Positions 44,386 through 54,574 of a DNA stretch of 64,000 nt are shown one piece after another. The position numbers were made by a program, and so were the translations under genes. Position 1 is the stretch's first letter, and each line of letters begins with the position of its first letter. The stretch is from Paenibacillus hemerocallicola. GTDB lineage: Bacteria; Bacillota; Bacilli; Paenibacillales; NBRC-103111. Under the pieces are notes generated by a model. That model did no database searches. It had not been told where the DNA came from and saw only the letters and a list, made by a program, of their open reading frames with translations. The DNA lies in contig NZ_VDCQ01000023.1 in NCBI RefSeq assembly GCF_006265175.1, positions 1 to 64,000 of the forward strand, written 5' to 3'.

Positions 44386-44835
44386 GTCGTTTCCTCCTTG
44401 ACGCGCGGTTTGTCGCGCTTCCAGTTGTTTATGGCGTTGTATTGCCGGGGCTCGCGGTTGTGTAGCATCGCTTCGAAGCGCGACATCCCGACAGCGAGGT
44501 GCGGATTCGCGGATTGAATGCGGAAACTGCGTGCGATCCGAATGAAGGAACTCTTATCGGGCGGCTTCGATCAGAAGCCTTTTTTCCAAGTATAAGGGAG
44601 AGCAAGCCGAGGGGATGTGACGGAAATCACACGTTTCCGGCAGGCGCCGGATACGAAAGTCCCATACCAGTTAAGCTCTTAAACGTCGATGAACATCATG
44701 CAGCCGGGAGCTTGTTTGAGCCGGCCTGCCGATCGAGAGATGCCGGTGGTCGGAATACGGGTGCATGGCCGAATGGTGAAGGTTGGGTTACAATAGGGAT
44801 AAGGTTACTTGGAATTACGGAAAGGGGAGACGGAC
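44386..44835. other. Intergenic region before pxp operon
   Basis: A 450-bp stretch without a convincing gene. It is the shared upstream region of the leftward chemotaxis gene and the rightward pxp operon. A possible -10 TACAAT sits at 44789-44794 with a poor -35. No riboswitch or repeat was recognised. Confidence 0.4.
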
Positions 44836-45645
44836 ATGTTCGGCAAGGACGATGAGGCAGCTCTGCACCCGCTCGGCGACTCGGCGCTGCTGATCCGTTT
44901 CGGGGAACGGATCGAGCCGGGCTCGACCGGGAAAGTACGCGCGGCCGTTCGCAAGCTGGAAGCGAAGCCGTTTCCCGGTTTTATCGAAGCGGTGCCGTCA
45001 TACGCCGCGCTGGCGGTTTACTACGATCCGTGGATCGTGTACCGGTCATTGCGCTACAAGCGGGCCGACGCGGAGGAAGCCGTGTATGAAGCCGTATGCG
45101 ATACGGTCCGCTCGCTTCTTGCATCGCAATCGGTCGACGATGACGATGAGACGGACACCGTAGTGACGATTCCGGTCTGCTATGGGGGGAGCTACGGCCC
45201 GGATCTGGACGAATTGGCGGCATACCACCGCATTGGAGTAAAAGAAGCCGTTGCGCTGCATGCCGGAGCGGAATACACCGTAGCGATGATCGGATTCGCT
45301 CCGGGCTTTCCTTACTTGTCCGGACTGCCCGAACGGCTGGCGACCCCCCGTCGGGCAACGCCCAGAGGCGAGGTTCCGGCCGGCAGCGTAGGCATTGCCG
45401 GTAGTCAAGCGGGTATGTACTCGCTGAAAACGCCCGGAGGCTGGAATATTATCGGACGTACGCCGCTTCCGCTGTTTCGTCCGGACGCCGAGCGGCCTTC
45501 GCTGTTGCAAGCGGGAGATCGCGTAAGGTTCGAGCCCATTACGCCGGAACGGTTCGAGGAATTGGCGTCTTCCGCCGCACGGACGACTGACCTTGATGGC
45601 GCCGAGCGGAGAGGGGGACAGCTTGATCATGCAAAATCAAAGTAG
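44836..45645 (+). CDS. pxpB: 5-oxoprolinase subunit PxpB (KipI family)
   Basis: A 269-residue PxpB/KipI protein. It has PLGDSALLIRFGERI at the start, IPVCYGGSYGPDL in the middle, and the family stretch IGFAPGFPYLSGLPERLATPRRATPR followed by PAGSVGIAGSQAGMYSLKTPGGW. With PxpC and PxpA it makes the ATP-dependent enzyme that opens 5-oxoproline (pyroglutamate) to glutamate. AAAGGGGAG precedes the ATG. It overlaps pxpC by 17 bp. In Bacillus the homologue KipI also inhibits the sporulation kinase KinA, so a second role is possible. Confidence 0.92.
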   Translation: MFGKDDEAALHPLGDSALLIRFGERIEPGSTGKVRAAVRKLEAKPFPGFIEAVPSYAALAVYYDPWIVYRSLRYKRADAEEAVYEAVCDTVRSLLASQSVDDDDETDTVVTIPVCYGGSYGPDLDELAAYHRIGVKEAVALHAGAEYTVAMIGFAPGFPYLSGLPERLATPRRATPRGEVPAGSVGIAGSQAGMYSLKTPGGWNIIGRTPLPLFRPDAERPSLLQAGDRVRFEPITPERFEELASSAARTTDLDGAERRGGQLDHAKSK

Positions 45646-46672
45646 CGCCTACGTGGTTAAGTCGGGCTTGTTCACGACTGTGCAGGATGACGGCCGCTTC
45701 GGCCATCAGCGCATCGGCGTGCCCGTCGGCGGCGCCATGGACGGCTATGCCCTGCGCGCGGCTAACGCGCTCGTCGGCAACGGCCCGCGCGCGGCCGCGC
45801 TCGAGCTGACGCTCGCCGGCTTCGCGCTGCGGCTGGACGCCGACGCGCTCGTCGCCGTCACCGGCGGCGGCTCCTCGCCGACCGTCGACGGCTGCCCGCT
45901 GCCCGCGTGGCGCGCCGTCTTCGTCCGCCGCGGCGCCGAGCTCGCCTTCGCGCCCGCCGCCTCCGGCTGCCGCGCCTACCTCGCGATCGCGGGCGGCTTC
46001 GCCGTGCCCGCCGTGCTCGGCAGCCGCGGCACGCACGTCCCGTCCCGGCTCGGCGGCCTGGACGGCCGCCCTCTGCGGGCGGGGGACGCGCTGCCTGTCG
46101 GCGCGCCGGAGCCAGCTGCCGCTGCGCTGCTCGCGAAGCTGCGCGGCGAGGCCGGGGACGCGGCTTGGGCGGCCCCCGCCTGGGGCGTCAGCCCGCACGC
46201 GCTGCCGGCTTACGACGACCATCCGGTCGTGCGGGTAACGCCGGGCCCCGAATACGAACGCTTCGCGCCGGACAGCCTGCGGCTGTTCCTCGCTTCGGCG
46301 TTCGTCGTCTCGTCCCGCTCCGACCGGATGGGCTACCGGCTGGACGGCCCGCGGCTGGAGTTGGCTGGCGCCGGGGCCGGAAGCCTGCTGTCGGAGCCGG
46401 TCACGGCCGGGACGGTTCAGGTGCCGCCGGACGGTTTGCCCGTCGTGCTTATGGCCGACAGACAGACGACGGGCGGCTATCCGCGCATCGCTCAAGTGTC
46501 CGAGGCGGATCTGCCTCTGCTGGCGCAGGCGAGGCCCGGAGCGCAAGTGCGATTCGAGCTGATCGGTCATGCCGAATCCCGGCAATGGCTGCTGGCCGTC
46601 CGGCTGGAGGAGCTCATGCTGCGGGCCGGCATCGGGATGCGGATGCGGGAGGAGACGGAGCGTTATGGATAA
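45629..46672 (+). CDS. pxpC: 5-oxoprolinase subunit PxpC (KipA family)
   Basis: A 347-residue PxpC/KipA protein. [30 protein letters not shown] is the family start, then NALVGN and, late, [13 protein letters not shown] and [18 protein letters not shown]. The ATG at 45629 follows GAGGGGG by 11 nt; a TTG at 45623 with 5-nt spacing is the alternative. The first 600 bp are much more GC-rich than the flanking genes, with nearly all third positions G or C and many Ala and Arg codons. It overlaps pxpA by 8 bp. Confidence 0.92.
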
Positions 46673-47408
46673 ATCGGACAAACGTATCGACTTGAACTGC
46701 GATATCGGCGAAGGCTTCGGCGTATACCGGACCGGCGAGGACGAGCGGCTGCTCGATGTCGTGACGTCGGCGAATATAGCCTGCGGCTTTCATGCGGGCG
46801 ATCCGGCGACGATGCTGCGGACCGTAAGGCTGTGCGCGGAGCGCGGCGTGGCGATCGGCGCGCATCCGGGGCTGCCGGACATGACAGGGTTCGGCCGGAG
46901 AGAGATGGCGATTTCGCCGCAGGAAGCTTACGAGATGACGGTATATCAGCTAGGGGCGCTGTACGGCTTCGTCCGGGCGGAAGGGGCCGTTATGCGGCAT
47001 GTGAAGCCGCACGGGGCGCTTTACAATATGGCGGCTGCCGATGCCGGTCTGGCCGAAGCGATCGCGGAGGCGGTGCGGCGCGTGGACGCTGCGCTCGTTT
47101 TGGTCGGGCTCGCCGGAAGCGAGCTGGTCCGCGCCGGTGCGGCTGCGGGGCTGGCAACCGCCGCAGAAGCGTTCGCGGACCGGCGGTACCGGCAGGACGG
47201 CACGCTCGTGCCGAGGCGGGAGCCGGGAGCGATGATCGGAGACGCCGCCGAGGCGGTCGGCCAAGTGCTGCGTCTCGCCGCGGCGGGACAGGCGCAGACA
47301 GTGTGCGTACACGGTGACGGCCCGCATGCCCTCGAATTCGCTTCCCGGGTCCGGCAAGGATTGCAGCAGGCGGGATGGCGGCTTGCGCCGGTGGCGGGCG
47401 AAGCGTGA
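46665..47408 (+). CDS. pxpA: 5-oxoprolinase subunit PxpA (LamB/YcsF family)
   Basis: A 247-residue PxpA protein with the complete family pattern: [44 protein letters not shown] and VKPHGALYN, then [10 protein letters not shown] near the end. It is the catalytic TIM-barrel-like subunit of 5-oxoprolinase. GGGAGGAGAC lies upstream. It is the last gene of pxpBCA. No transporter for oxoproline and no terminator were seen; the following 100 bp lead into the repeat block. Confidence 0.93.
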
Positions 47409-48092: not shown

Positions 48093-48182
48093 CAATATGT
48101 TTTTTTGCATTGCAATAAGACCAGACCTTTCCCTTCGCCTCAGGAGAATATCTTTATAAACATTCTTTCCCAAATGTTAGGC

Positions 48183-48211
48183 TTGATGAATCCAACGTCA
48201 TCCCATATAAT
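48183..48211 (+). promoter_or_regulatory. Sigma-A promoter of a short transcript
   Basis: TTGATG (48183-48188) and TATAAT (48206-48211) with a 17-bp spacer. The unit it would drive contains the 15-codon ORF at 48268 and the terminator at 48376. Confidence 0.65.
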
Positions 48212-48267
48212 TGTAATGTTACCAAAATGGCAATGAAAATCGACTAAGGTGAGAGGAGGCGTACGGC

Positions 48268-48315
48268 ATGCAAAACATGTTGTTTAACGGCAAAATCGAG
48301 GTGTACCGCTTTTAA
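48268..48315 (+). CDS. 15-residue micro-ORF (possible leader peptide)
   Basis: MQNMLFNGKIEVYRF, preceded by AGGAGG at 48254-48259 with 8-nt spacing, as good a ribosome binding site as any in the window. It lies between a consensus promoter and a terminator 61 bp after its stop, which is the layout of a translational or transcriptional attenuator. It may also encode a free micro-peptide. No family is known to me. Confidence 0.45.
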   Translation: MQNMLFNGKIEVYRF

Positions 48316-48375
48316 CCGAATACGGCCTAAACTTAACCTTCACCTGATGCGCGTGAATACATACATTCGACACAG

Positions 48376-48402
48376 GCACGATGCGGGTTATCGTGTTTTT
48401 TT
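48376..48402 (+). terminator. Terminator/attenuator before CD3324-family gene
   Basis: CACGAT (48376-48381) and ATCGTG (48389-48394) form a stem followed immediately by TTTTTTTG. It is short but has a perfect T run. It lies between the micro-ORF and the 35-codon ORF. Confidence 0.65.
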
Positions 48403-48491
48403 GTTCCCTTTTTTCCGAGGTTTACGGGACTAATCCGCCGCTCGCGGCGTCCGGACGGGAATCCGGACCATTCTAAATAGGAGGTGAGACG

Positions 48492-48599
48492 ATGAAAGCG
48501 CTCAGCATTGTTCAAGTCGGGTCGGTTTTGGCATCCAACAATCTAGAGGAGGTTTTCATCAATGAGTTACAAAAACGGAAAGGATTTTCTTCCGCCTAG
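48492..48599 (+). CDS. 35-residue ORF overlapping the CD3324-family gene
   Basis: MKALSIVQVGSVLASNNLEE and 15 further residues, ending at TAG 48597-48599. A near-perfect AGGAGGTGAG lies 3-4 nt upstream of its ATG. Its last 38 bp overlap the start of the CD3324-family gene in another frame, so ribosomes translating it would reach the start of that gene. This is a typical arrangement for translational coupling or a leader peptide. It is not recognised as a known peptide. Confidence 0.45.
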   Translation: MKALSIVQVGSVLASNNLEEVFINELQKRKGFSSA

Positions 48600-48852
48600 C
48601 TTATTGAAGGAACTGCAAAATTACATTCAAGGCGAACTTGTCTATATTCCGAAAATCGAGCAAACCAGGGCCGGATGGGGCGAGAATAACGGAACGCGCA
48701 AGCTGATCGAGAAGCGCAACCGCGAAATTTACCAGATGTACAAAGGCGGCGCAAGCGTCATCGAGCTGATCCAGCGCTTCCATCTGTCCGAGGACAGCAT
48801 CCGCAAAATTATCGTCAAGACCCGGGAACTCGTACAAAATGTGGCCAAATGA
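48562..48852 (+). CDS. CD3324 family protein (HTH-like)
   Basis: A 96-residue protein with the CD3324-family pattern: an N-terminal segment KDFLPPSLLKELQNYIQGEL, then VYIPKIEQTRAGWGENNGTR, and a C-terminal helix-turn-helix-like part EIYQMYKGGASVIELIQRFHLSEDSIRKIIVK. The family is widespread in Firmicutes, small, resembles Mor-type DNA-binding domains, and has no firm function. AGAGGAGG lies 9 nt before the ATG. It is preceded by two tiny ORFs and an attenuator-like hairpin and followed by a terminator that starts at its stop codon. Confidence 0.85.
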   Translation: MSYKNGKDFLPPSLLKELQNYIQGELVYIPKIEQTRAGWGENNGTRKLIEKRNREIYQMYKGGASVIELIQRFHLSEDSIRKIIVKTRELVQNVAK

Positions 48853-48885
48853 AAGCAGGACGTTTATCGTCTTGCTTTTTTTCTT
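48852..48885 (+). terminator. Terminator of CD3324-family gene
   Basis: AAAGCAGGACG (48852-48862) pairs with CGTCTTGCTTT (48868-48878) with one G-U, followed by a T run. Confidence 0.85.
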
Positions 48886-48950: not shown

Positions 48951-49343
48951 ATGAAACGCGTTTTCGTGTACGGAACATTGATGACGGGAGAGGCGAACCA
49001 TGGCATAGCGGCGCCTCATACGTTTTCCGTCGAGCCCGGCGCGGTGAGAGGAAGACTTTACAATGCCGGACCGTATCCGGCTCTAGTAGTCGAAGCGACG
49101 GGAAACGACGATGGCGGCAACGTCGTGCGAGGCGAATGGCTGACCGTGAGCGATGAGGGGCTTCCGGCGATGGATGCGCTCGAAGACTATTACGGCCCCG
49201 GCGATCCCCGAAACGACTACGATCGGGTGCATATCCGCGATATCGACGGCATTCGCCGCGGTTGGGCGTACGTCTGGCAAAATTCGAGGGGATGCGCGGA
49301 AATACGCTCCGGATTTTGGCGGGAGCGCGAATCAAACTTCTAG
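48951..49343 (+). CDS. Gamma-glutamylcyclotransferase-like protein
   Basis: A 130-residue AIG2/GGCT fold protein. VFVYGTLMTGEANH is the family substrate loop, then GRLYNAGPYPALV and the catalytic Glu region MDALEDYYGPGDPRNDYDRVHI. It would release 5-oxoproline from gamma-glutamyl compounds, which fits with the pxpBCA oxoprolinase 1.5 kb upstream, although many homologues have other roles. GGAGGG precedes ATG 48951. A TATAAT at 48917-48922 could be its own promoter. Confidence 0.85.
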   Translation: MKRVFVYGTLMTGEANHGIAAPHTFSVEPGAVRGRLYNAGPYPALVVEATGNDDGGNVVRGEWLTVSDEGLPAMDALEDYYGPGDPRNDYDRVHIRDIDGIRRGWAYVWQNSRGCAEIRSGFWRERESNF

Positions 49344-49371: not shown

Positions 49372-49415
49372 GAAGAGAATTGAAAGAATCATGTCGAAAG
49401 AACGGAGAGAACAAC

Positions 49416-49796
49416 ATGACGGGGAAAAAAATACTGCTTGCCGACGACGAAACGGCACTCCGCTTCCTGCTCACGGAAACGCTGGCGGACGAAGGCTACG
49501 CCATTACGGAAACCGAGGACGGACAGCAAGCGAAAGACAAGCTGCAGCAAGAGTCGTACGATCTGGTCATCCTCGATTATATGATGCCGGAGAAAACCGG
49601 GGTCGAAGTATGCGAATGGCTGCGCGGATCGGATTCGCCGAACCGCGACATTCCGGTCATTTTGCTGACCGCCAAGGCGCTCGAGAAAGACAAGGAAAAA
49701 GCGAAGGCGGCCGGCGTCACGTCCTACGTCGTCAAGCCGTTCAGTCCGCTCCAATTGATCGATATCGTGGGAAGCCTGCTCGGGGACGGCGAATAG
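49416..49796 (+). CDS. Stand-alone CheY-like response regulator
   Basis: A 126-residue single receiver domain. ILLADDETALR carries the acidic pocket, VILDYMMPEKTG carries the phospho-acceptor Asp54, and the conserved Thr (LLTAKA) and Lys107 (YVVKPFS) are present. There is no output domain. GGAGAG lies before the ATG. It is first in an operon with the hybrid histidine kinase at 49819 and the Hpt-REC-GGDEF-REC protein at 52838, and is probably a phosphate shuttle or sink in that relay. Confidence 0.92.
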   Translation: MTGKKILLADDETALRFLLTETLADEGYAITETEDGQQAKDKLQQESYDLVILDYMMPEKTGVEVCEWLRGSDSPNRDIPVILLTAKALEKDKEKAKAAGVTSYVVKPFSPLQLIDIVGSLLGDGE

Positions 49797-49818
49797 TCGG
49801 GGAGAGGAACGGATCAGT

Positions 49819-52800
49819 ATGCCGACCAAAATGAGAAGCATCGCATCGAACGTGTCTGTTTTGATTTTTACGACCATTTTGCTGTTCGCCGTCTTCGTGC
49901 TCGCTACCGGGTTGACGATGAACAACCATATCATAGAGGCCCGTGACAACCTCGAGCTGGAAATGCAGGACCAGGCGCTTGTCGAAAGCTTGTATAACGA
50001 CTCGCAAACGGTCGTTTCCGACTTGAGGGCGTATTTGGCATTCGGCAGAGCCGATTTTTTGACCCAATTCCTCGCCATGAGGCAGACGTTCGATGCGAAG
50101 CTGAACGATATATCCGACCGATTCCAAAGCCGCGACTACGGAGAGAAATTTTCCAACGAATGGAACGCCATTCTTAAAGCGTGGGCAAGCTACCGACAAT
50201 CGAGCGAAACGGTAATCGAGCTTAAAAAAAGCGGCAGCATGGAAGAAATCGAGAATATGTCGAAGACGACGACCACGTCCAACGTGAACGATATGAACCG
50301 CAATTTTCAGACGATCATGTCCTCGCAGAACGAATCCGTGCAGCGCTGGCTCGACGATAACCGGAAACGGACCGACATGCTGATCCTGCTGCCGATCCTC
50401 GTCGTTACGGGCGCCGCGATAGCCGGCGGGCTGCTAGTCGTTTATTTGCGCCGCAAGGTGATCGGCCCGATCGTTCAAGCCGACGCGGCCGTCAACCGGA
50501 TTGCCGATGGCGAATATGTGCAGGTCGCGCTCAGCCACCGCAACGACGAGCTGGGGCGGCTCGAGCGCGGCATCAATTTCATGTCGGGCGAATTAAGACA
50601 GCGTCACGTCGCACTCAAGGAATCGAACAAAGAGCTGATCGACCAGCGCGACCTTCTGGAGGCGCAGAATGAAGAAATATCCGCCCAGCAGGTCGAGCAG
50701 CAGGAGATGCTGCTTAAGCTGACCGATCGGGAACGCGAGCTGGAGCTGATTACGACCTATCAGGAGAAGCTGACCGGCCACGTGGAAATCAAAGCGTTCC
50801 TGAACCATTCGGTCAAAGCGCTGCTGCAGGCGCTGCATCAGGATGCGGCCGTGCTTATCGCGGAGAATCCGGAGACGTCCGCTTTCGACGTCATTTACTC
50901 GTACGGATACCCGCAGGGCGCGCTCCCTTCTTCCTATAAAGAGTTGTTCGGACCGAGCATGCGCGTCCTGCACGAGAAGCAGGCCATCTACCGGAAGCGG
51001 CAGCTGAATGCGGACGAACGGGGCATTCACGGCGGCTATGACACCGCGCTGGACCAATACTATCCGCTTCTCGACGAATATTCGCACGTGATCGGCATGC
51101 TCCTCATTACGTCCTATGGGGCAAGCGAGGTGGACGACACGCTGCATCGGCTCACCAAAGGGCTCGTCCGGCAGTTCGCGCTCGCATTCCTGGCGCAGAC
51201 GACGAACGAGGAGCGGCGCAAGCAGGCGTACTTGCTGGAAGAGCTGAACGAGGAGCTGTCCCAGGAGCGCGACAGCTTGCAGCAGCAGCGGGATCTCGTT
51301 AGGCGCATCATCGAATCGATTCACGAAGGCATGGTCATGTGCGACGGCGGCGGACGGATTCTGTTTTCCAATGAGCGCATGAACGAGATGTTCGGCTTCG
51401 ACCGTTTCTCCGGATCGAATGTCCGGGATTTTTGCCGGCATCTGGAAGCGGGGGCTCCGGACAAATCGCAGCTGGGCGAATTCGCCGAGGCGGTCCTGAA
51501 CGGAACGCTTGAGCAAGTGCAGGAACGGTTTACGCTGGCGCTCGAAGACGGACGCGAGGAGCATTTCGAGCTGTATGTCAACTCCATAACGGACCCGATC
51601 GAGAATACGCGCAGCTTCCTGTTCGTGTTCCGCGACCGCACCAATGAGGAAATGGCCGACGAGATGAAGAACGAGTTCATCAGCATCGTGTCGCACGAGC
51701 TGCGTACCCCGCTCGCGAGCGTTCTCGGCTTTATGGAAATTTTGCTGAACCGGGATATTCCGAAGGAAAAGCAGAAGAAATATATGGAGACGATTTACAA
51801 GGAAGCGAGCCGACTGTCCAACCTGATCAACGATTTCCTCGATCTTCAGCGGATGGAATCGGGCAAGCAGGCGTACCAGCACATTCCCGTCAACATGTCG
51901 GCGGTCGTGAGGGACGTCTCCGAGCAATGGCAGGGCAAGCAGGACCATCGCATCGACACGGCCATCGAGCCGGAAGTGTTCGTTACGGCCGATATCGACC
52001 GGATGACGCAGGTGATGCACAACTTGCTTAGCAATGCGGTGAAATATTCGCCGACCGCGGACCGAATCGCAGTCCGTGTCGCCAAGGACCGCGACTATGC
52101 GGTTATCGAGGTGCAGGATTTCGGTTTGGGTATTCCGGAGGACGCCAAGGAGAAGCTGTTCAACAAGTTTTATAGGGTGGACAACTCCGATCGCCGGCAA
52201 ATCGGCGGCACCGGCCTCGGGCTCGCCATCGTCAAGGAAATCATCGAGTCCCACCACGGTACGTTGACGTTCGAGTCGGAGCTCGGCGTCGGCTCCACCT
52301 TCCGCATTCGGATGAAAACTTATCGCGCGACCGGGATGGGCGGCAAGGTCGTCATCGTGGAAGACGACGAGAACTTGTCCAAGCTCATTGCCGTCGCCTT
52401 CGAGAAGCTGAACGTATCGACCGTACAGCTGCGCAGTGCGGAGGATGCGGTTTTGTCGCTGCGGGAAACGACCGGGCCGGCTCCGCTTATTTGCATCGTC
52501 GATATCCAGCTGGACGGCAAGAAGCTGGGCTGGGATTTCATCGCCGAGCTGTTGCAGCATCCGGTATACCGCAACACCCCGGTCATCGTGTCGACCGTCC
52601 TGGAGCCGCCCAAGCATTTTCATGAGACGGATACGGGCAAATATTTGCGCAAGCCGTTCACGATCGACCGGCTGCTCGAGCTGGCAGCGAGCCTGATGGA
52701 GCCCGCCCAGAGCAATCCTACCGTCGTTTTTCCGGTTCAGGACCGGGAGGCGATCGCAACGAAGCTTGAAGAGAAAGGGATTCACGTGACCGATTTGAAG

Positions 52801-52845
52801 ATCAAACGGGATATTATCGAAGTGGAAGTGAAGAAGCATGACTGA
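49819..52845 (+). CDS. Hybrid sensor histidine kinase with C-terminal receiver
   Basis: A 1008-residue membrane kinase. Membrane segments at about 11-33 and 190-212 enclose a mostly helical extracellular domain (four-helix-bundle type). A HAMP domain covers about 212-265 and a coiled coil to 315. A GAF-like domain spans about 330-460, a second coiled coil to 495 and a PAS-like domain about 495-605. HisKA has His626 in VSHELRTPLASV, and HATPase_c has NLLSNAVKYS, DFGLGIP and GGTGLGLAIV. The receiver begins IVEDDENLSK with phospho-acceptor Asp895 in CIVDIQLDGK. About 45 residues of unknown fold follow at the C-terminus. It overlaps the next gene by 8 bp and likely phosphorylates its partners in relay. 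Confidence 0.93.
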   Translation: MPTKMRSIASNVSVLIFTTILLFAVFVLATGLTMNNHIIEARDNLELEMQDQALVESLYNDSQTVVSDLRAYLAFGRADFLTQFLAMRQTFDAKLNDISDRFQSRDYGEKFSNEWNAILKAWASYRQSSETVIELKKSGSMEEIENMSKTTTTSNVNDMNRNFQTIMSSQNESVQRWLDDNRKRTDMLILLPILVVTGAAIAGGLLVVYLRRKVIGPIVQADAAVNRIADGEYVQVALSHRNDELGRLERGINFMSGELRQRHVALKESNKELIDQRDLLEAQNEEISAQQVEQQEMLLKLTDRERELELITTYQEKLTGHVEIKAFLNHSVKALLQALHQDAAVLIAENPETSAFDVIYSYGYPQGALPSSYKELFGPSMRVLHEKQAIYRKRQLNADERGIHGGYDTALDQYYPLLDEYSHVIGMLLITSYGASEVDDTLHRLTKGLVRQFALAFLAQTTNEERRKQAYLLEELNEELSQERDSLQQQRDLVRRIIESIHEGMVMCDGGGRILFSNERMNEMFGFDRFSGSNVRDFCRHLEAGAPDKSQLGEFAEAVLNGTLEQVQERFTLALEDGREEHFELYVNSITDPIENTRSFLFVFRDRTNEEMADEMKNEFISIVSHELRTPLASVLGFMEILLNRDIPKEKQKKYMETIYKEASRLSNLINDFLDLQRMESGKQAYQHIPVNMSAVVRDVSEQWQGKQDHRIDTAIEPEVFVTADIDRMTQVMHNLLSNAVKYSPTADRIAVRVAKDRDYAVIEVQDFGLGIPEDAKEKLFNKFYRVDNSDRRQIGGTGLGLAIVKEIIESHHGTLTFESELGVGSTFRIRMKTYRATGMGGKVVIVEDDENLSKLIAVAFEKLNVSTVQLRSAEDAVLSLRETTGPAPLICIVDIQLDGKKLGWDFIAELLQHPVYRNTPVIVSTVLEPPKHFHETDTGKYLRKPFTIDRLLELAASLMEPAQSNPTVVFPVQDREAIATKLEEKGIHVTDLKIKRDIIEVEVKKHD

Positions 52846-54574
52846 TTCGCAGGAGCGGGACGGATTGGAGAAGCAGCGCAGAAACGAAAGGTTGTTGAAG
52901 GAAGGCAAAGCCCATTTCCTGGAGGAGCTGCACAAGCAGATTCACACGATGGAGCAAATGCTGTGCCGGATGGAGCAGGATTTCGAAGAAGAGCTTCCCG
53001 GACATTTTTACCGGTATGCCCACACGCTGAAGGGCAGCGCCCCCGTATTCGGCTTCGCCAGCGTGGGCGACGTCGCCGGGCTGCTCGCAGCCGAGTGGGA
53101 GTGGTCGCAGGAAGAGGCGAAGGCGGAGACGGCAGCGGCCTCCTCGGCGAGGCAAAGCGCGTTGAACAGCAAGGGCAGCCTGATGCAGCTGAAGATGGAA
53201 TTGATCATTTTGCAGCGCCAGCTGCAGGTCAGCGATCAGAAGGAGCAAGGGGCGCGTACGCCGTTAATGGGACAGACCGGCAAGCTGCTCGTCGTCGACG
53301 ACGACGATGTGCTGCGCTCGTTTCTCGTCCGCCGGTTCGAGCTGGACGGTTATATCGTTCACGAATCGGACTCCGTGGCCAAAGCCAAGCAGAAGCTGCG
53401 CGAGGATACGTACGACCTGATTTTGCTCGACCTGATGATGCATCCGCAGTCGGGCTACGAGTTGTTCGATTATTTGAAGGAAGACCCGACGCTGAAATGG
53501 ATTCCATTGATCGTCCTGTCGGCACGGAACGACGTGCACGACAAAGTACGGTGCCTCATGCTCGGAGCGAACGATTACGTGACGAAGCCGTTTCAGTACG
53601 ACGAACTGGCCGCGCGTATTTTCAGCCTGCTGTCCCGTACGAAAAATTTCGAGCAGCTCGCCTTTCGCGACCCGCTTACAGGCATATTCAACCGGCGCTA
53701 TTTCGATCATCAGATCGAACAGGAGCTGCAGCGGATCGCCCGTTATCCGGCGCCGATTTCGATAGCGTTCATCGATATCGACCGGTTTAAGCATATTAAC
53801 GATACGTACGGACATGCGATAGGCGATCTCGTGCTGCAGGGTCTGGCCCATTTGCTGCAGCAGCAGCTGCGCTCGACCGATTTTCTTGCCCGCTTCGGCG
53901 GTGAAGAGTTCATCGCGGTCATGCCGAATACGACGGGGGAGCAGGCAGCCCGCATCATGGAGGGAGTACTCCAGCTTACGCATCGTCAGCCGATAGCGCA
54001 ATATGAGGGACAGCCGTTTTCGATTACATTTTCCTGCGGAGTTGCCGAATGGACGAAAGGGCTGCCTACGGCGCACTGGATCGCGCTCGCCGACGAAACG
54101 ATGTATCGGGCGAAGCAGCAGGGACGCGATCGCGTGCTGATCGCCGGCGGCAAATCGGAGACGGCGGTGCTGTTCGCGCCGGAAGGCGAATTAAAGCCGA
54201 AACGGGTACTGGTCGCAGACGATGACGGCATTCTCCGCTCCATTCTCGCGTCCCGTCTGAAGAAGCTGTCGGTCCAGGTCGCCGAAGCGAAGGACGGGGA
54301 GGAAGCGTACCGCTATTTGCACGAACATGACGTCGATTTATGCATTTTGGACGGAGTCATGCCGAGAATGGACGGTTTCGAATTGTTGAAGAAGATGAAG
54401 GCGGATTCCGGCGAACGGTTAAGGAATACCCGCATATTGATGCTGTCCGGCAAAAAGCGCGAGGAGGACATCGCCCTAGCGTTGCAGCTCGGCGCCGACG
54501 AATACATGTCCAAGCCGTTTTCCCTTGTCGAGCTGGAGATGCGGGTGAATCATCTGCTCGGGATAAACGAGTGA
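52838..54574 (+). CDS. Hpt-REC-GGDEF-REC diguanylate cyclase regulator
   Basis: A 578-residue cytoplasmic signalling protein with four domains. Hpt spans about 20-130 (YAHTLKGSAPVFG, His62), and receiver 1 about 148-268 (VVDDDD, LLDLMMHPQSG, YVTKPF). GGDEF spans about 275-440 with the active site GGEEF at 354-358, a full DPLTGIFNRRYF helix and an RxxD inhibitory site (RSTD) five residues before GGEEF. Receiver 2 spans about 455-575 (VADDDG, ILDGVMPRMDG, YMSKPF). It should make c-di-GMP under relay control and be product-inhibited. It is last in the operon and is followed by a terminator. Confidence 0.93.
   Translation: MTDSQERDGLEKQRRNERLLKEGKAHFLEELHKQIHTMEQMLCRMEQDFEEELPGHFYRYAHTLKGSAPVFGFASVGDVAGLLAAEWEWSQEEAKAETAAASSARQSALNSKGSLMQLKMELIILQRQLQVSDQKEQGARTPLMGQTGKLLVVDDDDVLRSFLVRRFELDGYIVHESDSVAKAKQKLREDTYDLILLDLMMHPQSGYELFDYLKEDPTLKWIPLIVLSARNDVHDKVRCLMLGANDYVTKPFQYDELAARIFSLLSRTKNFEQLAFRDPLTGIFNRRYFDHQIEQELQRIARYPAPISIAFIDIDRFKHINDTYGHAIGDLVLQGLAHLLQQQLRSTDFLARFGGEEFIAVMPNTTGEQAARIMEGVLQLTHRQPIAQYEGQPFSITFSCGVAEWTKGLPTAHWIALADETMYRAKQQGRDRVLIAGGKSETAVLFAPEGELKPKRVLVADDDGILRSILASRLKKLSVQVAEAKDGEEAYRYLHEHDVDLCILDGVMPRMDGFELLKKMKADSGERLRNTRILMLSGKKREEDIALALQLGADEYMSKPFSLVELEMRVNHLLGINE

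Follow-up and report, generated by a model that had tools for sequence, protein, structure and literature searches.

A conserved leader ahead of a CD3324-family gene in Paenibacillus: a candidate uORF-controlled attenuator with a second, translational layer

Introduction

What kind of control is exerted on a small gene whose upstream region holds a promoter, two small reading frames and a hairpin of the terminator type? The question is raised by a CD3324-family gene in a 64-kb window (the whole stretch of Paenibacillus hemerocallicola DNA that was analysed), whose host genome, G000, measures 9.65 Mb. A preliminary description of this DNA had noted a consensus promoter, a micro-ORF, a hairpin with a T-run, a 35-codon ORF and a CD3324 start embedded in that ORF, each of which was found again in its place, and had read the arrangement as translation-coupled or antibiotic-type attenuation. 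Among open-licence PMC papers, no study was found on the CD3324 family and none on a Mor activator in Paenibacillus; none was relevant by title on the Mor family, and nothing by title on uORF attenuation in Paenibacillus.

Layout of the locus

The CD3324 gene lies between pxp-like genes on its 5' side and a gamma-glutamylcyclotransferase gene on its 3' side, and a terminator-like hairpin at its 3' end suggests a one-gene unit. The locus comprises the following features.

48155-48169, + strand: upstream box TATAAACATTCTTTC, conserved
48183-48211, + strand: sigma-A type promoter, TTGATG-17-TATAAT, 10 of 12 consensus matches
48247-48256, + strand: 5' arm of helix P1, AGGUGAgAGG, overlapping the micro-ORF1 SD (predicted fold, cross-genus permutation test)
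48268-48315, + strand: micro-ORF1, 15 codons with an ATG start, encoding MQNMLFNGKIEVYRF, SD GAGAGGAGG (SD-led ORF in 94/94 leaders)
48313-48322, + strand: micro-ORF1 stop motif UAACCGAAUA; family consensus AACUGAAUA, usually preceded by U (family comparison)
48337-48345, + strand: 3' arm of P1, CCUUCACCU, within a conserved AACC..CACCUGA segment (fold, conservation)
48343-48376, + strand: P2, candidate antiterminator, CCUG (48343-48346) with CAGG (48373-48376) and a local hairpin between them (folding)
48377-48402, + strand: intrinsic terminator-type hairpin CACGAU/AUCGUG (stem 48377-48395) and T7 (near-invariant stem, model R1)
48449-48468, + strand: hairpin directly 5' of the ORF2 SD, altered yet re-paired in L007 and L009 (by eye)
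48492-48599, + strand: ORF2, 35 codons, encoding MKALSIVQVGSVLASNNLEEVFINELQKRKGFSSA, SD AGGAGGTGAG, overlapping the CD3324 start out of frame (same frame in 96/120 loci)
48546-48552, + strand: SD of the CD3324 gene, GAGGAGG, within ORF2 (sequence)
48562-48852, + strand: CD3324-family gene, 96 aa, Mor-like helix-turn-helix protein (profiles, structure model)
48851-48879, + strand: terminator-like hairpin closing the CD3324 gene (hairpin prediction)

The match of the promoter to the consensus is close, but four promoter-like sites occur in 6 kb where 2.8 are expected, so that a single site is not above chance by sequence alone. By eye, the congeners L007 and L009 keep TATAAT at the same position.

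The upstream box has an equivalent in relatives, TATAACCATTCTTTCGCTTGA, which in most of them lies at the promoter of a further upstream unit, Element A (see below); one match is found 55 nt 5' of Element A in 7 of 8 relatives (9 matches in total, 2 of them elsewhere). A regulon defined by this box was considered and rejected, as the box is not enriched in G000 (5+5 matches vs 9+5 for the reversed control) and is essentially single-copy in the 8 relatives.

Conservation of the leader

The comparison drew on 104 genomes of the same family, 392 of the same order and the DNA upstream of 100 orthologues from the family; counts across leaders and loci, here and below, are of related genomes taken singly rather than of independent events. 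The terminator, CACGA..TCGTG with its T-run, fits a strict pattern in 94 of the 100 orthologous loci. A covariance model extending from the stop motif to the T-run (R1, built from 43 sequences) matches 99 of the 100 loci once each, the 43 source sequences being among them. The sole miss, L080, is cut by a contig start. The match at L071 is partial, and four loci (L049-L051, L103) score only 28-36 bits. Together with the ORF2 frame, shared by 96 of 120 loci, these frequencies place the arrangement beyond chance.

Searched across the order at E<=0.01 under strict filters, R1 matches 101 of the 392 genomes, with one match in each: 98 of the 104 family genomes, the window's own genome included, and three genomes of other families (G104, G116, G281), where the match adjoins the CD3324 orthologue directly upstream. 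Among the family genomes that have no match, G001, G019, G020 and G076 lack an orthologue at E<=1e-25, the leader of G005 is cut at a contig end and that of G067 has diverged. In G088, whose CD3324 gene is at the start of a contig, the match is on a different contig; in the other 97 matched family genomes, the match at the locus is the single match in the genome. The 20 loci sampled from other families give 3 matches. No R1 match was seen before any other gene, and in a class-wide sample, only 2 of 398 genomes match, both of them family members, with none outside the order.

An independent exact-pattern scan of a collection of 84,980 species returned 57 stretches, titled Paenibacillus, Gorillibacterium, Paenibacillaceae or Bacilli MAG. 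CD3324 lies within 400 nt in 52 of these, and the remaining 5 run off the end of the stretch.

Micro-ORF1 and helix P1

The preliminary description had called for both small ORFs to be conserved in relatives. For micro-ORF1, this is the case: an ORF led by an SD-like motif (GGAG or GGGG) is found in all 94 leaders, and in 90 of them it stops in or at AACUGAAUA or a variant, in frames relative to the motif that number 43, 39 and 8. The motif carries stops in all three frames in many genera, and the position of the stop is thus conserved independently of the peptide. The four exceptions comprise a scoring artefact (L091), two ORFs that end about 10 nt earlier (L078, L101) and one that runs on (L061).

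The ORF itself varies from 12 to 27 codons. Its peptides are strongly unlike between genera (MNTMTVAMNVAAAAEVLVS, MVVVLDTMNKGKGFANK, MFDFTTTIKKGFWLN and, in the window, MQNMLFNGKIEVYRF), as are their ends (EVYRF, EVLVS, GFANK, GFWLN and others). No arrest motif is conserved across genera in these peptides, and no tlrB-like R/K-X-R/K motif was found at their ends. Judged from the sequences, micro-ORF1 is conserved as a unit of translation with a fixed end point, and its peptide is not.

The SD of micro-ORF1 (SD1) lies in one arm of a predicted long-range helix. The predicted pairing partners in the window are AGGUGAgAGG (48247-48256) and CCU.UCACCU (48337-48345), and the helix between them, P1, would span the whole of micro-ORF1. 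Its arms change together between genera: UCAGGaaGGA occurs with UCCgauCCCUGA in g14 and GGGGAGAUGG with CCAUCCCCC in g15; likewise, GGGAG occurs with CUCCU in g8 and GACGaaAGG with CCUGACGUC in g21 (read by eye). When the arms were permuted among 19 genera, each represented by one sequence, own pairs reached -14.6 kcal/mol against -12.7 for permuted pairs (median p 0 of 1000 permutations; 0.014 in the worst of 30 draws). Compared with control segments of equal length, P1 stood at -14.9 vs -9.9, -10.1 and -8.4, and the real partner was better than the stretch after the T-run in 18 of the 19 genera. In 11 of 49 representatives (L067, L010, L011, L069, L078, L025, L083, L073, L091, L020 and L022), the own partner paired no more strongly than partners from other genera did on average. 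An RNAalifold alignment of the leaders, which began 85 nt 5' of the terminator and excluded the 5' arm of P1, found the terminator only. Overall, P1 is supported as a long-range helix by covariation between genera.

Terminator and candidate antiterminator

The terminator hairpin of the window pairs CACGAT with ATCGTG (48377-48395), is followed by seven T and has a predicted energy of about -8.9 kcal/mol. Its stem is almost invariant across genera, beyond what a hairpin or a terminator alone would need.

P1 and P2 are mutually exclusive, since P1 holds the CCUG that is otherwise free for CAGG at the foot of the terminator. Ribosome mimicry, in which SD1 and the start region were masked in the folding of 50 representatives (P2 being scored in 49 of them), reduced P1 from a mean of 9.1 to 0.5 pairs and raised the probability of P2 from 0.03 to 0.36. 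The mean terminator probability fell from 0.95 to 0.76, a small average effect obtained with equilibrium folding. The four sequences of the window's genus changed from 0.96 to 0.75, 0.83 to 0.43, 1.0 to 0.03 and 0.75 to 0.07, and the terminator was left unmoved in several genera, such as most of g21, g22 and g8. This modelling makes P2 a candidate antiterminator. Because CCUG and CAGG are almost invariant, covariation support for P2 is absent beyond G-U changes in part of g18. An extension of P2 by CGU:ACG was rejected as a universal feature, as CGU is replaced by CUU or CAU in g1, g15 and g20 and ACG is fixed.

ORF2 and the CD3324 start

ORF2, whose ribosome binding site in the window is a 9-nt SD match, was surveyed in 120 loci (100 of the family and 20 from other families). 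An SD-led ORF that stays open through the CD3324 start occupies frame 1 in 96 loci (77 of the family and 19 of the others), frame 2 in 4 and frame 0 in none, and 92 of the 96 stop at +38; the second small ORF is therefore conserved as well. Start distances range from 58 to 130 nt in these 96 loci, and the last residue is mostly Pro (58), followed by Ala (20) and Gly (7). Over the last 60 nt before CD3324, the ORF2 frame is open in 109 of the 120 loci, against 44 and 39 for the other frames. In 24 of the 120 loci, 17 of which belong to g16 or g17, ORF2 is absent or closes upstream of the CD3324 start.

The stop of ORF2 is created by a third-base T at CD3324 codon 12, where Pro is encoded by CCT in 77 of 84 cases and Ala by GCT in 10 of 14; for comparison, CCT accounts for 3/100 at codon 11 and 34/100 at codon 30. 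Of the 10 codons with the lowest synonymous diversity (74 scored), 6 fall within CD3324 codons 2-13. At codons 10-12, low diversity could alternatively come from RNA structure over the SD, in some sequences only, and codon bias near the start together with local RNA structure may add to it across codons 2-13. Two further candidates were set aside: the AGY form of Ser at codon 13 as a mark of the stop, since Ser79 is equally fixed, and a conserved hairpin over the CD3324 SD, which is inconsistent among sequences. In this comparison, ORF2 reads as a coupling leader cistron, for which helping and hindering CD3324 are alike conceivable.

The CD3324 protein

The product belongs to the CD3324 family by profile (NF040785, 107.2 bits vs a cut-off of 65) and to the Mor transcription activator family (PF08765, 32.4 bits vs a gathering cut-off of 24.9). 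A structure model of the 96-aa protein has a confident helix-turn-helix (HTH) in its second half (mean pLDDT 80.8, pTM 0.52). Foldseek matches to this model are weak: V. cholerae VpsT ranks first at E 0.14, with Mu C in third place (E 0.18) and Mu Mor in fifth (E 0.39). A sequence search of the PDB returned four matches at E<=1, none of them relevant. The modelled product is a small HTH protein and probably a regulator.

A CD3324 match at E<=0.001 is found in 102 of the 104 family genomes, and an orthologue at E<=1e-25 in 100 of these 104 and in 249 of the 392 genomes of the order. Two paralogues with about 50% identity lie elsewhere in the window's genome (L002, L003), and the gene at L003 overlaps the end of a 312-aa ORF.

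A second upstream unit in relatives

Most relatives carry a further micro-ORF unit, Element A, for which L015:1038-1137 serves as reference; equivalents were found in 86 further family loci and in 19 loci of other families. It consists of a box TTATAACCATTCTTTCGCTTGA, a palindrome AGCCGGCCGGCT, a micro-ORF encoding [MVL]ITTxEV[VIA][SF][AV]-stop and a hairpin. A pattern search found the extra micro-ORF in 86 of the 100 family loci and in 14 of the 20 from other families. It ends in EV[VIA][SF][AV]-stop in nearly all, the EV being partly built in by a pattern that demanded G[AG]GGTG. The stop falls within the loop of the hairpin, which shows two-sided changes in 5 of its 6 pairs, and a hairpin of GGAGGCC..GGCCTCC type often comes next (by eye).

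A model of Element A built from 44 sequences (R2) scores at least 45 bits in 87 of 100 family loci and at least 61 bits in 19 of 20 loci of other families, and at E<=0.01, it matches 292 of the 392 genomes of the order, weak matches included. In the window's genus, Element A is absent from the CD3324 locus, and the window's genome has only a 25-bit match, elsewhere. G012 has a strong R2 match in its genome yet none in its locus, L070. Element A gave no Rfam match in the loci tested. The distribution of R2 suggests that control by tandem units is widespread in the order, with one stage retained in the window's genus.

Relation to known systems

Several described leaders, considered here as the cited excerpts present them, resemble parts of this one. 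The vmlR leader of B. subtilis has a 3-codon uORF with its SD single-stranded before the stem, and its gene encodes an ABC-F resistance factor (PMC9226507). A uORF in an anti-antiterminator stem, an antiterminator with an apical hairpin, an intrinsic terminator and an SD-linked second layer make up vmlR (PMC9226507), and the parts predicted here, with P2 as candidate antiterminator, follow the same order. In contrast to vmlR, the uORF here has 12 to 27 codons and its own SD inside the stem, and an HTH protein is controlled; the out-of-frame overlapping second ORF is a further difference from vmlR as the excerpt of PMC9226507 describes it. The tlrB (yxjB) leader peptide, also of B. subtilis, ends in an RYR arrest motif that is required for tylosin induction (PMC6851288). 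Like tlrB, the CD3324 leader would combine an intrinsic terminator with an SD-sequestering hairpin that also closes the leader peptide, and the clustered stops at the end of micro-ORF1 recall the tandem stop codons of the tlrB peptide (PMC6851288). Unlike tlrB, micro-ORF1 has no conserved RYR-type motif and controls no rRNA methylase.

A stand-alone HTH protein under proposed uORF attenuation has the layout of whiB7/wblC of Actinobacteria, where a uORF and a Rho-independent terminator gate the transcript of a transcription factor induced by translation stress (PMC13236596, PMC11550727); no sequence relation is claimed. The CD3324 leader differs by its ORF2 and by the additional micro-ORF unit of relatives, and induction is established for whiB7. 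In toiL-topAI of E. coli, which likewise has a uORF, stalling at different places in toiL is read through RNA pairing, and translational repression leads to Rho-dependent termination (PMC12121999), whereas the CD3324 leader is modelled as an intrinsic attenuator. Phage Mu Mor and C (PF08765; 1rr7, 9l0x) match the C-terminal HTH of CD3324 by profile and weakly by fold. Unlike them, CD3324 is a chromosomal gene in 100 of 104 family genomes, with metabolic and signalling neighbours in the window.

Proposed mechanism and alternatives

Translation-coupled attenuation, as first proposed, is the reading best supported by the comparison, in which micro-ORF1 and its stop, the helix covarying with SD1, the terminator, and the frame and stop of ORF2 are all kept. 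The antibiotic-type variant is plausible by analogy with vmlR, tlrB and whiB7. More precisely, the leader probably attenuates transcription under the control of a uORF and adds a second layer, at translation, ahead of CD3324 (probability roughly 0.6).

Under this reading, SD1 would be briefly free as the leader is transcribed. Were SD1 and the early codons to stay free of ribosomes, SD1 would pair with CACCU in P1, closing micro-ORF1 and holding CCUG; the CACGAU/AUCGUG hairpin would form and transcription would stop at 48396-48402. A ribosome initiating on micro-ORF1, or delayed early within it, would instead block P1, and CCUG would pair with CAGG; P2 would compete with the terminator at its foot, and polymerase would read through. 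Translation of ORF2 would follow, its ribosomes crossing the CD3324 start and stopping at +38, so that ORF2 would gate the translation of CD3324 or be coupled to it. The final product would be a small HTH protein, probably a regulator. Translation of both leader ORFs and the direction of the switch are thus parts of the model; translation stress may be the signal, and autoregulation may play a part.

If correct, this would provide the widely conserved CD3324 family with a concrete upstream signal, ribosome behaviour on the leader, and with a testable role as a translation-stress regulator. The layout joins an SD-closing helix, a three-frame stop cassette, an overlapping out-of-frame ORF and, in relatives, tandem units, and would offer a clean system for studying how attenuators operate without a conserved arrest peptide. 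A bolder extension, possible though doubtful, would set the locus beside whiB7 as its equivalent in Paenibacillales, a master switch for translation stress. Its small HTH protein would be autoregulatory, and would be gated by one micro-ORF attenuator, or two in tandem, together with an out-of-frame coupling ORF.

Among the alternatives, the terminated leader (about 180 nt) might itself be a trans-acting small RNA, with CACCUGA binding the SDs of other mRNAs and readthrough into CD3324 being secondary. The resemblance of CACCUGA to an anti-SD seed, the almost invariant terminator stem and the single R1 match per genome are consistent with this. It is nevertheless unlikely, as the leader lies directly 5' of CD3324 in 99 of 100 family loci, in all 3 matches from other families and in 52 of 57 exact-pattern stretches, micro-ORF1 is always conserved, and the C-rich segment co-changes with SD1 in cis, for which trans targets would have no need.

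A leader that binds a ligand or protein (riboswitch-like, or bound by CD3324 in autoregulation), with the micro-ORF incidental, would explain why the stop motif, CACCUGA and the terminator stem are conserved in sequence beyond the needs of base pairing. However, an incidental ORF would not be expected to keep its SD and stop in 90 of 94 leaders while its peptide drifts, and Rfam has no match in the 64-kb window, in the leader (E<=5) or in the leaders of 14 loci, which makes this reading quite unlikely. The fixed frame and overlap in 96 of 120 loci would fit a fusion in which +1 frameshifting within the 38-nt overlap makes ORF2 an alternative N-terminus of CD3324. This is very improbable, as ORF2 stops before the CD3324 start in several g16 genomes (e.g. 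L026, L029, L030) and CD3324 has a good SD of its own. Lastly, a lone promoter and hairpin are common by chance, but a chance or relic arrangement with no regulatory role is scarcely credible given conservation and covariation over 19 genera and R1 matches in four families.

Neighbouring genes

The attenuator proposed above is set among genes that recur near CD3324 in relatives. In the window, pxpB/C/A-like genes occupy 44809-47408 and gamma-glutamylcyclotransferase 48951-49343, both frequent neighbours of CD3324 elsewhere. PxpA and gamma-glutamylcyclotransferase were named by profile match; the other two upstream genes are those we take to be PxpB and PxpC. Pxp enzymes and gamma-glutamylcyclotransferase both act on 5-oxoproline. 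Among the 120 loci, with short flanks, upstream neighbours include PxpA in 32 and PxpC in 18, and downstream neighbours PxpA in 17 and gamma-glutamylcyclotransferase (GGCT) in 47. By genus, PxpC lies 5' of CD3324 in 9 of 24 loci of g18 and 6 of 13 of g21, and PxpA lies 3' in 9 of 24 and 8 of 13, respectively.

Further 3' in the window, 49380-54574 encodes, one after another, a response regulator, a hybrid histidine kinase of large size, and a protein in which Hpt, receiver and GGDEF domains are combined. At another locus, an Rfam purine riboswitch (L075:128-230, minus strand, 57.9 bits) lies about 0.8 kb 5' of the CD3324 gene, on the opposite strand.
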